From: Altererythrobacter sp. H2
GTDB taxonomy: Bacteria; Pseudomonadota; Alphaproteobacteria; Sphingomonadales; Sphingomonadaceae
Reading direction: 5' to 3'
Assembly: GCF_035319885.1 (NCBI RefSeq)
Contig: NZ_CP141285.1
Coordinates: 2,418,001-2,482,000 of the forward strand
Length of the DNA stretch: 64,000 bases
In this document: in pieces, positions 16,010 through 22,215 of the stretch
How the letters are laid out: every line of letters begins with the position of its first letter
How positions within the stretch are numbered: the stretch's first letter is position 1
The notes under the pieces: model-generated
The model's database searches: none
Told to the model about the DNA's origin: nothing
The model's input: the letters and a program-made list of their open reading frames with translations, nothing else
Position numbers and translations under genes: made by a program

Positions 16010-17851
16010 TCAGATCATCCCGCGCGCCATGTCGGGCGTCGGTTCGTCGCCCCTGCCGTCGTCGGCGGCCAGCTCTGCAAAGGCGCGGTCCTGCGACAGG
16101 TAGACCCGGCCGTTCAGCTCTTCGAGGAAATGGGTCCGCTGGAGGTGGTCCATCACCGGCCCCTTCACTTCCGACAGGTGCAGGCCGATGCCGCCATCGA
16201 CAAGGCGGTGGTTGATTGCTTCCAGGCTTTCGAGGCCTGACGCGTCGATCTCGTTCACTGCGCTGCACATCAGGATGACATGGCGCAGCTCGGGCCGCTC
16301 AGCGACGCGCTCCAGCACATATTCCTCCAGCCAGCGGGCGTTGAGGTAGGTCAGGCTCTCGTCGATCCGGATCGACACCACGTGCGGCACGGTGAACACC
16401 TTGTGCCGCAGCACATTGCGGAAATGCTCGGTCTCCGGCACCCGCCCGACAATCGCCGCGTGCGGCCGCGAGGCGCGCCACAGGTAGAGCAGCAGGCCGA
16501 CGCCAACGCCCGCGATCACGCCAAGCTCGACCCCGGCCAGCAGGGTAATCCCGATGGTCGCCATGTGCGCGGCGAAATCCGGCTTCGAATAGCGCCACAG
16601 CTTGCCGGGTGTCTGGAAATCGACCAGGCTCAGCACCGCGACGATGATGGTTGCGGCCAGCGTGGCAATCGGCAGGTAGAACAGCAGCGGGGTCAGGAAC
16701 AGCGAGGCGAGCGCGATGCCCACCGCGGTATAGGCCCCGGCGGCAGGTGTTTCCGCCCCCGCATCGAAATTGACCACCGAACGGGCAAAACCGCCCGTCA
16801 CCGGGTAGCCGCCCGAGAAGGCGCTGGCGATGTTGGACGCCCCCAGCCCGACCAGCTCCTGATCCGGGGCAATCCGCTGGCGCCGCTTGGCAGCCAGTGT
16901 CTGCGCCACCGAGACGCTTTCGACAAAGCCGATGATGGAGATCAGCAGGGCGGGCACCCATAACTGTTCGATCAAAGTCAGGTCCGTCGATGGCAGGGCA
17001 AACGGCGGCAGGCCTTGCGGCACCGCGCCAACCAGCTTGACGCCCTTGCCCGACAGGTCGAGCAGGACCGCTGCCAGGATTGTCAGCGCCACTGCGACCA
17101 CCGGCCCGGCCTTGGCCACGATATCGGCCAGGCGCGGCTTGAGCCCCAGCCGCACCAGCGCAGGCTTGGCCCCTTTGCGCACCCAGAACAGGAACAGGGT
17201 GGCGGGGACGCCAATCGCCAGTGTCCAGGAATTGGTCTGGGCAATCGACCGCGCCAGCGCGCCGAGCATTTCCGGCCAGGTCTCCCCGCCGGCCGACACG
17301 CCGAGGACATGCTTCAGCTGACTGGTGGCAATCAGCACGCCGCTTGCACTGATGAAACCGGAAATGACCGGATGCGACAGCAGGTTGGCAAGGAACCCCA
17401 GCCGCAGCAGGCCCATGATCACCAGCATCACACCCGAAAGCGCGGCCAGGGTGATCGCCGCCTCAAGATAGAGCGCGGTGCCCTGCGCCGCCACCGCGCC
17501 GGCGGCCGAGGCGGTCATCAGCGAGATCACCGCCACCGGCCCCACCGCCAGCGTGCGGCTGGTCCCGAACACGGCATAGGCGAATAAAGGGAGGATCGAG
17601 GCATAGAGGCCGACCACCGGCGGCAGGCCTGCCAGCAAAGCATAGGCAAGGCTCTGCGGGATCAGCATGATGGTGACGATCACCGCCGCCACCAGGTCGC
17701 TGGTCAGAACGCCCGTGTTGTAGGTTCGGCCCCATTCGAGAATGGGGAAGTAGCGCACCAGGGCCGGAGCGAACGGCCCCGGCCCCGGCGCGCGCCCGTT
17801 ATGCGGGGCACCACCTTGCGGTGACGCTTGCGACCCGTCGGGCATTGTCAT
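16010..17851 (-). CDS. SulP-family anion transporter with STAS domain
   Basis: The 613-residue protein has about 12 membrane segments (about residues 55-430), including the SulP signature region PVVGLYASILPLFAYAVFGTSRTLAVGP (read in two parts). A C-terminal STAS domain begins near residue 455 and contains EIDASGLESLEAI. The family carries sulfate, bicarbonate or other anions. The ATG overlaps the stop of the sulfide:quinone oxidoreductase gene (ATGA), which suggests it moves a sulfur oxyanion made by the sulfide pathway. That substrate is an inference from position. Confidence 0.9.
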   Translation of the reverse strand: MTMPDGSQASPQGGAPHNGRAPGPGPFAPALVRYFPILEWGRTYNTGVLTSDLVAAVIVTIMLIPQSLAYALLAGLPPVVGLYASILPLFAYAVFGTSRTLAVGPVAVISLMTASAAGAVAAQGTALYLEAAITLAALSGVMLVIMGLLRLGFLANLLSHPVISGFISASGVLIATSQLKHVLGVSAGGETWPEMLGALARSIAQTNSWTLAIGVPATLFLFWVRKGAKPALVRLGLKPRLADIVAKAGPVVAVALTILAAVLLDLSGKGVKLVGAVPQGLPPFALPSTDLTLIEQLWVPALLISIIGFVESVSVAQTLAAKRRQRIAPDQELVGLGASNIASAFSGGYPVTGGFARSVVNFDAGAETPAAGAYTAVGIALASLFLTPLLFYLPIATLAATIIVAVLSLVDFQTPGKLWRYSKPDFAAHMATIGITLLAGVELGVIAGVGVGLLLYLWRASRPHAAIVGRVPETEHFRNVLRHKVFTVPHVVSIRIDESLTYLNARWLEEYVLERVAERPELRHVILMCSAVNEIDASGLESLEAINHRLVDGGIGLHLSEVKGPVMDHLQRTHFLEELNGRVYLSQDRAFAELAADDGRGDEPTPDMARGMI

Positions 17852-19089
17852 GCGGCATCCCGCAGCGTGAGCCTGGGTTTCGGCCGCACCAGCCACTCAT
17901 GCCCCTTGAGCATTCCGTTCCAGTAGACCCACGGCAGCACTTCAGATTTGAGCAACCACGAAAGCCGCGCCGGGCGGGTTCCGTCGATCAGCCATTCGGG
18001 AAAACTCGGCAGGAGTTTCCCGCCATAGCCGAACTCCGCCAAGATGATCTTGCCGCGTTCGACCGTGAGCGGACAGGAGCCATAGCCGTCATAATCGATC
18101 GGCGGTGCCTTGCCGTCCAGCACGGCCAGCGCATTGACTGCGACCAAAGGCGCTTGCTTGCGGGCGGCGGCAGCGGTCTTCGCGTTGGGCATCGAACCGG
18201 CATCACCGGCACCGAACACGTTGGGATAACGCACGTGCTGGAGTGTGAACTGGTCGACATCGACGAAGCCGCTTTCCGCCGCCAGCGGGCTGTCGGCCAC
18301 GAATTGAGGAGCCACCTGCGGCGGAACCACGTGCAGCATGTCGAAGGTGCGCTGCACTTCACCCTCGGCGGTCGCGAATGTGGCCGTGCGGGAGGGCCCG
18401 TCAACTGCAACCAGATTGGATCCCAGTTTCAGCTGGATTCCATAGCGTTCGACATATTCCATCAGCGCCGGGACATAATCGGCCACGCCGAAAAGCACGG
18501 CGCCCGCATTGCGGAACTCGACGTCGATATTGCCCAGAACGCCCGCTTCCTCCCACGCATCGCACGAGAGATACATCGCCTTCTGCGGCGCACCGGCGCA
18601 TTTGATCGGCATCGGCGGCTGGCTGAAGATTGCGCGGCCAGACTTGAGGCCCTGCACGAGCTCCCAGGTGTAAGGCGCCAGATCATAACGGTAATTGGAG
18701 GTGACGCCGTTGCTGCCGAGCGTCTCTTCCAGCCCCGCGATCTTTTCCCAAGCGAGGCGGATGCCGGGGGCAACGACCAGGACCTGGTAAGTCAGCGTAG
18801 CGCCATCTGCCAGTGTCACCTGGTTGTGGTCGGGCTGAAACGTGGCTGCTGCCTGCCGTACCCAGGTTACCGCCTTCGGCATGACGCTCGCCATGGCCCG
18901 CCGGGTGACAGGTGCCTGGAACACACCGGCACCGACCATGGTCCAGCCAGGCTGGTAGAAGTGGTCCTCGCTTGGCTCGATGACGGCGATATCGAGCGAC
19001 GGCCTGCGCCTGAGCAGCGAGGACGCGGTCGCGATGCCGGCAGCTCCTCCGCCAACGATGACGATATCATGATGCCTGGCAGTGGTCAT
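17848..19089 (-). CDS. Type II sulfide:quinone oxidoreductase
   Basis: The 413-residue flavoprotein has the FAD motif IVIVGGGAAGIATA near residues 8-21. The segment IKCAGAPQKAMYLSC with Cys164 closely matches the mitochondrial SQOR-type enzyme, and a second redox cysteine, Cys339, lies in YGSCPLTVE. The C-terminal MLKGHEWLVRPKP is also typical of type II enzymes and may help membrane attachment. It should oxidise sulfide to protein persulfide or sulfane sulfur and pass electrons to ubiquinone. An excellent ribosome site (GAAGGAGAGACC) precedes the ATG at 19089. It is coupled to the SulP gene and lies 76 bases after the YeeE genes, in the same direction as the persulfide dioxygenase. Confidence 0.9.
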   Translation of the reverse strand: MTTARHHDIVIVGGGAAGIATASSLLRRRPSLDIAVIEPSEDHFYQPGWTMVGAGVFQAPVTRRAMASVMPKAVTWVRQAAATFQPDHNQVTLADGATLTYQVLVVAPGIRLAWEKIAGLEETLGSNGVTSNYRYDLAPYTWELVQGLKSGRAIFSQPPMPIKCAGAPQKAMYLSCDAWEEAGVLGNIDVEFRNAGAVLFGVADYVPALMEYVERYGIQLKLGSNLVAVDGPSRTATFATAEGEVQRTFDMLHVVPPQVAPQFVADSPLAAESGFVDVDQFTLQHVRYPNVFGAGDAGSMPNAKTAAAARKQAPLVAVNALAVLDGKAPPIDYDGYGSCPLTVERGKIILAEFGYGGKLLPSFPEWLIDGTRPARLSWLLKSEVLPWVYWNGMLKGHEWLVRPKPRLTLRDAA

Positions 19090-19165: not shown

Positions 19166-19591
19166 TTACCGTTCGACCAGGCGAACCAGACCCATCCCGG
19201 CGAGCATGGCGGCAATGAAGGTTGCTGCCCCTGCGGGCTCCAGCACCAGCGCTGCAACGCCTGGCCCGGGGCACAGGCCGGCAATGCCCCAGCCGATTCC
19301 GAACAGGGCAGACCCTGCAACAAGCTTGAACGTGAGGTCGCTGCGATCAGGCAGGGCGAACTTTTCCGCGAACAGCGGATGGGCCAGGCGCGGCTGGATG
19401 CGCCAGGCAATGGCCATCACGATCACCGCCCCGCCCATCACGAACGCCAGCGTCGGATCCCAGGCCCCGAACAGGTCGAGGAAGCCGCGCACCCGGGCCG
19501 GATCGGTCATCCCGCCCAGCGCCAGACCGGCACCGAACAGGCTGCCCGATGCCAGAGGCGGCAGCAGCCGCCGAATCATGCCTTCCCGCAT
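19166..19591 (-). CDS. YeeE/YedE-family sulfur transporter, C-terminal-half type (PmpB/DUF6691-like)
   Basis: The 141-residue membrane protein has four hydrophobic segments and motifs LFGAGLALGGMTDPARVRGF and GIGWGIAGLCPGPGVAAL. The GLCPGPG cysteine matches the conserved cysteine in the second half of YeeE/TsuA thiosulfate transporters. It is half the length of full YeeE, and its partner half lies two genes upstream. The start is either 19591 or the ATG at 19579 that overlaps the DUF2892 stop. It probably imports or exports thiosulfate or persulfide-type sulfur. Confidence 0.85.
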   Translation of the reverse strand: MREGMIRRLLPPLASGSLFGAGLALGGMTDPARVRGFLDLFGAWDPTLAFVMGGAVIVMAIAWRIQPRLAHPLFAEKFALPDRSDLTFKLVAGSALFGIGWGIAGLCPGPGVAALVLEPAGAATFIAAMLAGMGLVRLVER

Positions 19592-19779
19592 GTGTCCATC
19601 CCCATCAGCCGGTAGAGCGGGCAGAAGCTCACCAAAGTGGTTGTTACGAAAACCGCCACCACGATCCAGGCCCCCAAGGCGAGCGGGCCGGCCAGGGTGC
19701 CGTTCAACGCCAAGACGGCCAGTATGGCAGCCACGATCAGCCGCATGGCACGGTCAAGCGGGCCCATGTTCTTCGTCAT
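19576..19779 (-). CDS. DUF2892 (YgaP-like) small membrane protein
   Basis: The 67-residue protein starts [14 protein letters not shown], has two hydrophobic helices and ends [15 protein letters not shown]. It matches the DUF2892 membrane unit that in other bacteria is fused to rhodaneses such as YgaP. Both its start and its stop overlap neighbouring YeeE-type genes by a few bases, so it is made together with them. The two C-terminal cysteines (in CPLY and DTCGK) could take part in sulfur handling; this is inference. Confidence 0.85.
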
Positions 19780-20225
19780 TGCAGGATCTCCAGTCCAAGA
19801 GCGTTCATCGCCGCCACCGTGGCAATGCCTGCCGCCATGAATGTGGCGGTGGCGACAATCGAACGTTGCGACAGGCGGCTCACCCCGCAAACGCCATGGC
19901 CGCTGGTGCAGCCGCTGCCGAGCCGGGTGCCAATCCCGACCAGCACGCCGGCAATGACCAGCGGCACCGGTCCGGCGAAGCTGGCTGGCAAACCGCCCGA
20001 CGCCAGCGCGACAATCAGCGCACCGAGCGGCAGGCCGAGCAGGAACATCCACGCGCTCGACTTCGACATGCCGCTGTCGCTGAGGCCGGTTGCGCGAGCA
20101 GCAATGCCGGACACACCAGCGATCCGCCCTGCTCCAAGCAGCATCAGCGCAGCGGCCAGGCCGATCAGCACGCCGCCGCCCAGCCCCGCCAGCGGAGCCG
20201 CATCGGGAAATCCGGCCAGAGTCAT
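19776..20225 (-). CDS. YeeE/YedE-family sulfur transporter, N-terminal-half type (PmpA-like)
   Basis: The 149-residue membrane protein has about four helices. It carries the motif [20 protein letters not shown], which is the conserved cysteine-bearing signature of the YeeE/TsuA thiosulfate transporter family. Two cysteines sit in [10 protein letters not shown]. It starts with an ATG overlapping the persulfide dioxygenase stop and ends overlapping the DUF2892 start. With the second half (19166-19591) it should form a heteromeric sulfur transporter. Confidence 0.88.
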
Positions 20226-21154
20226 ACCGCGTTCACCGGAATCTTGAGGTAGCGCACGCCGTTGTCCTCCGGCTCAGGCATATGGCCGGCGCGCATGTTG
20301 ACCTGCACGCTCGGCATGATGAGAGTGGGCATTCCCAGCGTCTTGTCGCGCGTGGTCCGCATGGCGACAAATTCGTCTTCCGAGATGCCGTCATGCACAT
20401 GGACATTGGCGCGGCACTGCTCACCCACGGTGGTCTCCCACGCAAAGTGATCGCGTCCGGGTGCCTTGTAATCGTGGCACATGAACAGCCGGGTTTCCTC
20501 CGGCAACGACAGCAGGCGGCGGATCGACTGGAACAGGTGCCTAGCGTCACCCCCGGGGAAATCGGCCCTCGCTGTCCCGTAATCGGGCATGAAGATCGTG
20601 TCGCCGGCAAAGACGGCATCACCGATCACGAAGGCCATGTCGGCCGGGGTATGGCCGGGTACATGAAGGGCTATGCCTTCCAGCGCACCAATCCGGAACG
20701 TGTGGCCGTCCTCGAACAGGGCATCGAACTGCGATCCGTCACGCACAAAAGCACTGCCTGCGTTGAACAGGTTGCCGAACACTTCCTGCACAGTGGTGAT
20801 GTGGCGGCCAATAACGATCTGCCCGCCGAGGATCCCCTGCAGGTAAGGTGCGGCCGACAGATGGTCGGCGTGGGCATGGGTCTCGATCAGGAGCACGACT
20901 TTCAGATTATTTGATTTCACGTAATCGATGATTGAATCAGCTGAATGGGTCGAAGTGCGGCCGGAAGGCGCATCGTAATCGAGCACCGAGTCGATAATAA
21001 CCGCCTCGCTCGATGCAGCGTCGTGCACGACGTAGCTGACGGTGAAGGTCGCCTCGTCAAAGAATGCCTTGATTTCCGGACGGAGGGACGGGTCTGCTTG
21101 AGCGCGGGCCACCTGTCCGGCCGCCGCTTGAAGCACTGTGTCAGCATGTTCCAT
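20222..21154 (-). CDS. Persulfide dioxygenase-type metallo-beta-lactamase-fold hydrolase (ETHE1/Blh-like)
   Basis: The 310-residue protein has the iron-binding motif THAHADH (His93, His95, Asp97, His98), HVPGHTP (His168), AGDTIF (Asp185) and CHDY (His227). The family-specific segments [13 protein letters not shown] and [21 protein letters not shown], read in parts, match the Blh/ETHE1 group. These oxidise glutathione persulfide to sulfite. No rhodanese domain is fused. It is the first gene of the minus-strand sulfur operon, preceded by TTGGAG. The divergent peroxiredoxin-arsR pair starts 75 bases away. Confidence 0.92.
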
Positions 21155-21164
21155 CGGGCATCTC

Positions 21165-21187
21165 CAATTTACTTTCGTAAAGTGTGT
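21165..21187. promoter_or_regulatory. Candidate ArsR operator between the sulfur operon and peroxiredoxin gene
   Basis: The gap between the divergent starts holds an AT-rich dyad. TTTAC (21168-21172) pairs with GTAAA (21177-21181), and ACTTT pairs with AAAGT in the same site. A TATAT element (21186-21190) that could be a -10 box follows at once. ArsR repressors bind such AT-rich palindromes, so it is the likeliest target of the regulator encoded at 21883. Confidence 0.45.
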
Positions 21188-21229
21188 ATATGTCTTGATT
21201 TCTGTCTGTCAAGCGGTATTGGAGAATGC

Positions 21230-21886
21230 ATGACTGACCCCACCTCCCGCCCTGCCCCTTGTGCCGGCCTCCGCATTGGCGACCAGGCCCCTGATTTTAC
21301 GGCGCGCAGCACGACCGGGCAGATCCGCCTGTCTGATTTCCGGGGCCAGTGGTTGATCCTGTTCTCGCACCCGGCCGACTTCACCCCGGTGTGCACCACG
21401 GAGTTTGTGGCGCTTGCGCGCAACGCAGCCGCGTTCGAGAAGCGCAGGTGCGCACTGATGGCCCTCTCGGTCGACAGCCTTTTCTCGCATTTCGCGTGGC
21501 TGAGACTGATCCGTGACCGGTTCGGGCTGGAAGTGCGCTTTCCCATAGTCGAAGACCCGACCCTGGTGATCGGCCGCGCCTACGGGATGGTTTCGGCGTT
21601 CGATACCGACAGCGCGACAGTCCGCACGACGTTCTTCATCGATCCGGAAGGCACGATCCGGGCGATGACGTGCTACCCCGCCAATGTCGGCCGCTCGACA
21701 GCGGAGATGCTGCGCATCCTCGATTCCTTGCAGGCAGTCGATGCCGAGGACGCGCTGGCCCCGGCCAACTGGGTGCCGGGCGAGCCGCTGCTGCGCCAGC
21801 CTGAAGCAACGCTCGACCGGGTCTATGCAGCAGATGGCGAAGCCGACTGGTTTCTTGGTGACGCCGGCAAAAAGGGTGCGCAATGA
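21230..21886 (+). CDS. 1-Cys peroxiredoxin (Prx6 type)
   Basis: The 218-residue thiol peroxidase has the motif PADFTPVCTTEF with peroxidatic Cys55. TVRTTFFIDPEG and a long C-terminal arm containing VNWxPGEP-like sequence (PANWVPGEP) are typical of Prx6. Other cysteines (11, the CALM segment and TCYPANVGRS) could act in resolution. The ATG at 21230 has GGAG five bases upstream. It overlaps the arsR start by four bases and is divergent from the persulfide dioxygenase operon. A role in reducing peroxides or polysulfides made during sulfide oxidation is an inference. Confidence 0.93.
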   Translation: MTDPTSRPAPCAGLRIGDQAPDFTARSTTGQIRLSDFRGQWLILFSHPADFTPVCTTEFVALARNAAAFEKRRCALMALSVDSLFSHFAWLRLIRDRFGLEVRFPIVEDPTLVIGRAYGMVSAFDTDSATVRTTFFIDPEGTIRAMTCYPANVGRSTAEMLRILDSLQAVDAEDALAPANWVPGEPLLRQPEATLDRVYAADGEADWFLGDAGKKGAQ

Positions 21887-22215
21887 ATCGCGACGGCCTG
21901 ATCGAAGCGCTCAAGGCGCTCGCCCATCCGCTGCGCTACCGCATTCTGGAAGTGCTGCAGGATGCCGAACGCAATGTCGGCGAAATCGAGGAACTGACCG
22001 GCATCGGGCAGCCAGGCCTGTCACAGCAGTTGGCCGTGCTGCGCAGCGCCGGGCTGGTGCATACACGCAAATCGGCCAAGCTGGTATTCTATCGGCTCGA
22101 TCCCGCCACCATGGGCGAAGTGCGGGGCGCGATCGGCAGGTTCGCGCGAGCGGCAGACGCGCCCAAACCGGCAAGGGCAGCCCCGGGCGCGGCCAATTTC
22201 GCCCGGTTGTCCTGA
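21883..22215 (+). CDS. ArsR-family repressor, BigR/SqrR-like but cysteine-free
   Basis: The 110-residue winged-helix protein starts LIEALKALAHPLRYRILEVL and has the recognition region GIGQPGLSQQLAVLRSAGLV. This closely follows the IGQPxLSQQLxVLR signature of the persulfide sensors BigR and SqrR. Those proteins sense sulfane sulfur with two cysteines. Here the first position is occupied by Glu and the second is absent, and the whole protein contains no cysteine. It is coupled to the peroxiredoxin gene and most likely represses the divergent sulfur operon. The C-terminal tail is alanine/proline-rich. Confidence 0.9.
   Translation: MNRDGLIEALKALAHPLRYRILEVLQDAERNVGEIEELTGIGQPGLSQQLAVLRSAGLVHTRKSAKLVFYRLDPATMGEVRGAIGRFARAADAPKPARAAPGAANFARLS

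Follow-up and report, generated by a model that had tools for sequence, protein, structure and literature searches.

Here we describe a predicted ArsR/SmtB-family repressor of Altererythrobacter sp. H2 that contains no cysteine, is encoded in overlap with a 1-Cys peroxiredoxin next to an operator-like element, and ends in a conserved tail that among its relatives is found only where a peroxiredoxin gene adjoins. As this cysteine-free protein is made together with the peroxiredoxin and the tail occurs only in such pairs, the enzyme is probably the sensor. The fuller reading, which we regard as evenly balanced and which draws on comparative sequence evidence, is that the peroxiredoxin serves as the thiol sensor and may influence the repressor non-covalently, by way of the tail. 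Within the window (the whole 64,000-nucleotide stretch of DNA that was analysed) the pair comprises the following features.

21230..21886, + strand: 1-Cys (Prx6-like) peroxiredoxin of 218 residues, from family models, with peroxidatic Cys55 plus Cys11, Cys74 and Cys148
21883..21886, + strand: ATGA overlap of the prx stop and the arsR start, a frame relation shared by nearly all relatives
21883..22215, + strand: predicted cysteine-free ArsR/SmtB-family winged-helix repressor of 110 residues, from the ORF, family models and an AlphaFold2 model
22183..22212, + strand: conserved C-terminal tail PGAANFARLS (residues 101-110), from alignments, low-confidence or disordered in the model, with Phe106 invariant

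The initial annotation had described a 110-residue protein devoid of cysteine, and the translated ORF, which runs intact from ATG to TGA, bears this out. The host genome measures 3.24 Mb and has an Erythrobacter MAG as a close relative; a MAG of the same species encodes the same cysteine-free ArsR with two substitutions, and in the Sphingomonadales clade containing the window protein 63 of the 74 sequences in the tree have no cysteine at all. An isolated mutation, chance, pseudogene formation or decay, and a sequencing artefact were ruled out, given the clade-wide state, the intact ORF and the matching MAG. With zero cysteines in the sequence, direct dithiol sensing by this protein is impossible, as had been anticipated.

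Sequence, fold and phylogeny support kinship with the persulfide sensors BigR and SqrR. BigR ranks first among the PDB matches (3pqj, E 2e-17, query residues 7-84), followed in order by Rv0081, HlyU, NolR and SqrR, and the AlphaFold2 model (pLDDT 89) is confident over residues 1-90, where it adopts the standard ArsR fold with a Z of 14 against ArsR structures, the tail being unordered. In phylogenetic trees the protein is nested in a BigR-containing group with a support of 90, alongside BigR and peroxiredoxin-linked two-cysteine relatives from other families, and it still falls inside the BigR/SqrR-like set in a larger tree whose deep forks are weak; a position away from BigR and SqrR was not observed. 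The kinship claimed by the initial annotation stands to this extent but does not make the protein a BigR equivalog: the protein scores 67.4 bits on NF040642 against a cut-off of 155, which rules out a true BigR by family model, while membership of the ArsR/SmtB family is clear from the 'metalloregulator' subfamily model NF033788 (81.7 bits, cut-off 55) and PF01022 (44.4, cut-off 22). Neither of the two conserved cysteines that define BigR and SqrR is present. Glu23 does lie opposite the first sensor cysteine of BigR, as previously noted, but the position is unconserved (A, T, R, S, Q or E in relatives), and Glu23 as a new sensor residue was rejected for this reason; the second position corresponds approximately to Arg88/Ala89, outside the aligned stretch.

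A different explanation, which we consider improbable, is that the ArsR directly senses a metal or a small ligand that is not thiol-reactive, with the tail stabilising the protein or its dimer. ArsR/SmtB proteins sense many ligands, the curated match is to a model of metalloregulators, and the structural neighbours of the model include both metal and redox sensors. Against this, histidine is found only at positions 15 and 60 and none lies in alpha5, the alignment shows no conserved cluster of His, Cys, Asp or Glu, and nothing corresponds to the alpha5/alpha3N sites of CzrA, SmtB and NmtR; a metal site was ruled out for want of ligand residues, and the metal ligand site that would have counted against the initial annotation is not there. 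The free variation at the lost cysteine position likewise gives no hint of a new ligand site, and the restriction of the tail to neighbours of peroxiredoxins would be left unexplained.

The loss of the sensor cysteines follows the presence of the peroxiredoxin. Both cysteines are present in all 41 relatives that lack an adjoining peroxiredoxin gene (five unlinked rows flagged as odd were misses of the cysteine pattern, their sequences showing both residues), whereas in most peroxiredoxin-linked ArsRs, from several lineages, the pair is absent or incomplete. It is missing from the window clade and from L239-L241, reduced to a single cysteine in L154-156, L178 and L225-L227, shifted in position in further linked families, and present in some others (L095, L096, L098, L103 and L182). 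Since every unlinked relative retains both residues and losses occur only among linked members, the pair is dispensable only in the company of a peroxiredoxin.

The distribution of the tail shows the same dependence. Its consensus is approximately (A/G)xxFAR(L/M/V), preceded by a variable low-complexity linker, and Phe106 is the sole invariant residue among the last 40 in an alignment of 26 sequences. In a dereplicated set the tail is present in 64/64 peroxiredoxin-linked ArsRs and in 0/40 unlinked ones, and among 20 borderline family members, picked as the likeliest source of exceptions, all 19 linked proteins are tailed and the one unlinked protein is tail-less. Retrieval that took no account of the tail, designed to avoid circularity, agreed with this split: of BigR-profile matches from 289 alphaproteobacterial genomes, the tail is carried by 5/5 with a nearby peroxiredoxin and by 0/25 without, and a search anchored on the peroxiredoxin recovered additional prx-arsR pairs, every one of them tailed. 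A phylum-wide profile search, with a profile that included the tail, added more linked and unlinked members with an identical division. The motif was loosened once, after divergent members had been seen (FPAV in L200). A genome scan for the tail by means of a degenerate DNA pattern was uninformative, with 58 matches compared with 38 for the control, and among the 20 matches that were read the only other near-terminal one was an AVFASVDMIS ending in L220. The proposed group of tailed, peroxiredoxin-linked ArsRs is defined by an upstream-adjacent prx and a FAR-type tail, and the window protein has both.

Linkage to prx changes about five times on the best tree, with two of the changes on supported branches, and with so few independent events a sign test cannot reach significance. 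Such a small number would suit a scenario in which the tail binds another target (RNA polymerase or the protein's own dimer) and is simply co-inherited with the linkage; we hold this to be very unlikely, as the unlinked, tail-less L092 and L108/L192 sit inside linked, tailed groups, L092 on a supported branch. Many linked ArsRs keep two cysteines, and the tail may therefore serve something besides sensing. Both the loss of cysteines and the tail with its invariant Phe track the peroxiredoxin, which is most simply read as a sign that this enzyme would carry the chemistry and bind the tail. The partnership with the peroxiredoxin raised by the initial annotation is thus strengthened by two features confined to linked members, the contact itself being something that we infer.

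The peroxiredoxin is of the 1-Cys, Prx6-like type (1-cysPrx C-terminal domain PF10417, 24.0 against 21.1; NF009668, 216.7 against 211), and its peroxidatic Cys55, in the motif PVCTTEF, is invariant across the peroxiredoxins compared. R26 and E108 are common to the linked enzymes (R116/A117 mostly) and rare in unlinked ones. The overlap of the two genes is predicted to couple their translation; neither natural prx-arsR fusions nor in-frame read-through were found among the relatives, the frame never matching. In Sphingomonadales, peroxiredoxins beside a cysteine-free or single-cysteine ArsR possess an extra Cys148 in 65 of 67 rows, the exceptions being one unrelated second peroxiredoxin and L063. 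A sister group from Novosphingobium, with two-cysteine ArsRs, has Ala or Thr at position 148, and the single-cysteine ArsRs of L154-L156 adjoin a peroxiredoxin with Trp148. This correlation is suggestive only, because Aurantiacibacter (L040, L053, L054 and L056) and L055 combine Cys148 with a two-cysteine ArsR. Cys148 is unusual for 1-Cys peroxiredoxins, whose representatives among the relatives show Tyr, Thr or Leu, and it lies just before a conserved YP motif on the strand beside the presumed active-site Arg132. Its role could be that of a resolving cysteine. A study of persulfide formation in a 1-Cys peroxiredoxin is cited by PMC7315123 (its reference 18).

In other alphaproteobacterial families a similar peroxiredoxin is followed by a different protein of ~90-108 aa (L159 2794-3087, L163 3775-4044 and L164 2792-3118), which starts with (M)PCLNPDGTL or MACINPDGTL and looks winged-helix-like by eye; these loci possibly represent a second pairing of a peroxiredoxin with a regulator.

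The assignment to a sulfide locus made by the initial annotation proved correct, as the opposite strand encodes a complement of sulfur genes that diverges from prx-arsR across the candidate operator.

16010..17896, - strand: SulP-family permease, from family models
17848..19089, - strand: SQR-like FAD/NAD(P) oxidoreductase, from family models
19166..19591, - strand: DUF6691, second YeeE-like half, from a family model
19576..19779, - strand: YgaP-like TM protein, from a family model
19776..20225, - strand: YeeE/YedE sulfur-transport half, from a family model
20222..21154, - strand: Blh-type metallo-beta-lactamase (persulfide dioxygenase-like), the first divergent gene, from family models
21173..21193, no strand assigned: operator-like element TTTCGTAAAGTGTGTATATGT (clade consensus TTaCATAAAttgTGTATATGTaTTGC), conserved between blh and prx
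21185..21212, - strand: probable blh promoter TTGACA-N16-TATACA, with the -35 at 21207-21212 and the -10 at 21185-21190, read by eye

The ~75 bases that separate blh from prx contain the block TTaCATAAAttgTGTATATGTaTTGC followed by tGTCAAG, conserved to a degree equal to coding DNA. Allowing up to 3 mismatches, the candidate operator occurs genome-wide only at two prx-arsR/blh sites, with 0 matches for a reversed control; in the window it occurs once, where 0.00 occurrences were expected. The putative blh -10 box lies inside the operator, and the conserved TGTCAAG supports the promoter reading, the scan at the threshold of the promoter tool having returned zero matches, with the blh promoter falling below it. 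By eye, the operator covers the blh -10 and borders on the -35 region of prx, so that a single repressor bound there could silence both units. In the segment 21195-21230 a mere 8-12 bases or so separate the probable prx -10 from the ATG in most relatives, an arrangement which suggests that the prx mRNA may be leaderless or nearly so.

Under the reading we favour, the ArsR would repress, as a dimer, both the blh-yeeE-sqr persulfide-oxidation operon and the divergent prx-arsR unit to which it belongs, and would bind the single conserved operator overlapping the blh -10 box and abutting the prx -35 region. Itself unable to read sulfur or peroxide, it would depend on the co-translated 1-Cys peroxiredoxin as the chemical sensor, whose Cys55 (and in this clade perhaps also Cys148) would become oxidised or persulfidated, and the state of the enzyme would be relayed by non-covalent binding of the flexible tail PGxANFARL/M, thereby switching DNA binding. 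That the protein represses, which signal induces and which way the switch would turn are, like the contact, what we infer. More tentatively, and with the balance somewhat against it, the tailed proteins may form a repressor subfamily that uses a metabolic peroxidase as its receptor for reactive sulfur or peroxide by way of the tail, so that their own thiol switch would have become dispensable and been repeatedly lost.

The arrangement is widespread. Among ~80 related loci from genome collections, blh and prx-arsR diverge from one another throughout Sphingomonadales, and the layout of the clade is nearly uniform: the persulfide-dioxygenase operon on one side of the operator and the overlapping prx and arsR on the other. 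Cysteine-free relatives next to peroxiredoxin genes, which the initial annotation had proposed looking for, thus exist in number. Within the host genome a second cysteine-free ArsR, 57% identical and with its own prx, is encoded at 838 kb (L090 8822-10589, genome 829-849 kb). Its blh is shortened to 228 of ~310 aa and adjoins genes for an IS66-type transposase and a TraA-like relaxase, so that this second prx-arsR/blh copy is probably mobile or decaying. A two-cysteine, HlyU/NolR-like ArsR at 808 kb (L089 6520-8696, genome 806.5-808.7 kb) has its own blh-yeeE-SulP operon; as each type of regulator stands at its own sulfide operon in one genome, thiol-switch and cysteine-free regulators exist side by side. 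The locus of the two-cysteine ArsR adjoins copper-resistance-like genes with MGH repeats.

This two-cysteine homologue could do the sensing if the window protein were a signal-blind autorepressor that caps expression, with induction by dilution, proteolysis or another regulator, and with the tail as a possible recognition site for turnover. NolR, a member of the same subfamily with no cysteine in its aligned part, may itself be a signal-blind autorepressor. We judge this explanation unlikely: no copy of the operator was seen upstream of the two-cysteine homologue at up to 3 mismatches, a tail serving turnover alone need not be restricted to peroxiredoxin-linked members, and the conserved residue of the tail keeps its place with or without residues after it (L042, L077, L093 and L095). 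What the initial annotation had missed is the tail, the spread across the clade and, within the host genome, a paralogue and a distinct two-cysteine homologue. The reading of the peroxiredoxin as sensor makes predictions about a partner enzyme, an operator and a peptide motif. If true, it would give the ArsR family a mechanism with an enzyme as sensor, and would show how a thiol switch can pass from one protein to another in evolution.

In the open-access literature we found no description of a peroxiredoxin-ArsR pair or of the tail. ArsR repressors of sulfur-oxidation genes have been characterised in the alphaproteobacterium Hyphomicrobium, where SoxR and sHdrR, unlike the window protein, need both cysteines and have no described peroxiredoxin pairing or tail (PMC10451225, PMC12423496). 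It has been remarked that the two cysteines are missing from many of the ArsR-type regulators near shdr genes, whose mode of action may differ, with no mechanism given (PMC12423496), and our reading offers a candidate answer to how cysteine-less ArsRs at sulfur loci work. RexT of Nostoc, an ArsR repressor associated with genes of thiol redox function, senses H2O2 through its own cysteines (PMC8960804), whereas the window ArsR has none. BigR (Xylella, Acinetobacter) and SqrR (Rhodobacter) have in common with it the fold, the subfamily, a near-identical recognition-helix segment and a target operon of the same kind, with a persulfide dioxygenase; the window protein differs in its absence of cysteines, its FAR tail, its co-translated peroxiredoxin and its score below the BigR cut-off. 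NolR of Sinorhizobium, of the same wider subfamily and likewise cysteine-free in its aligned part, is only ~30% identical, has no FAR tail that we could see, falls on the HlyU-like side of the tree and, to our knowledge, is not near a peroxiredoxin. In Bacillus, glutamine synthetase is a sensor enzyme that acts on the flexible C-terminal tails of GlnR and TnrA, which are MerR-type regulators answering to a nitrogen signal and share no kinship with the ArsR described here, but whose enzyme-as-sensor principle would be alike.
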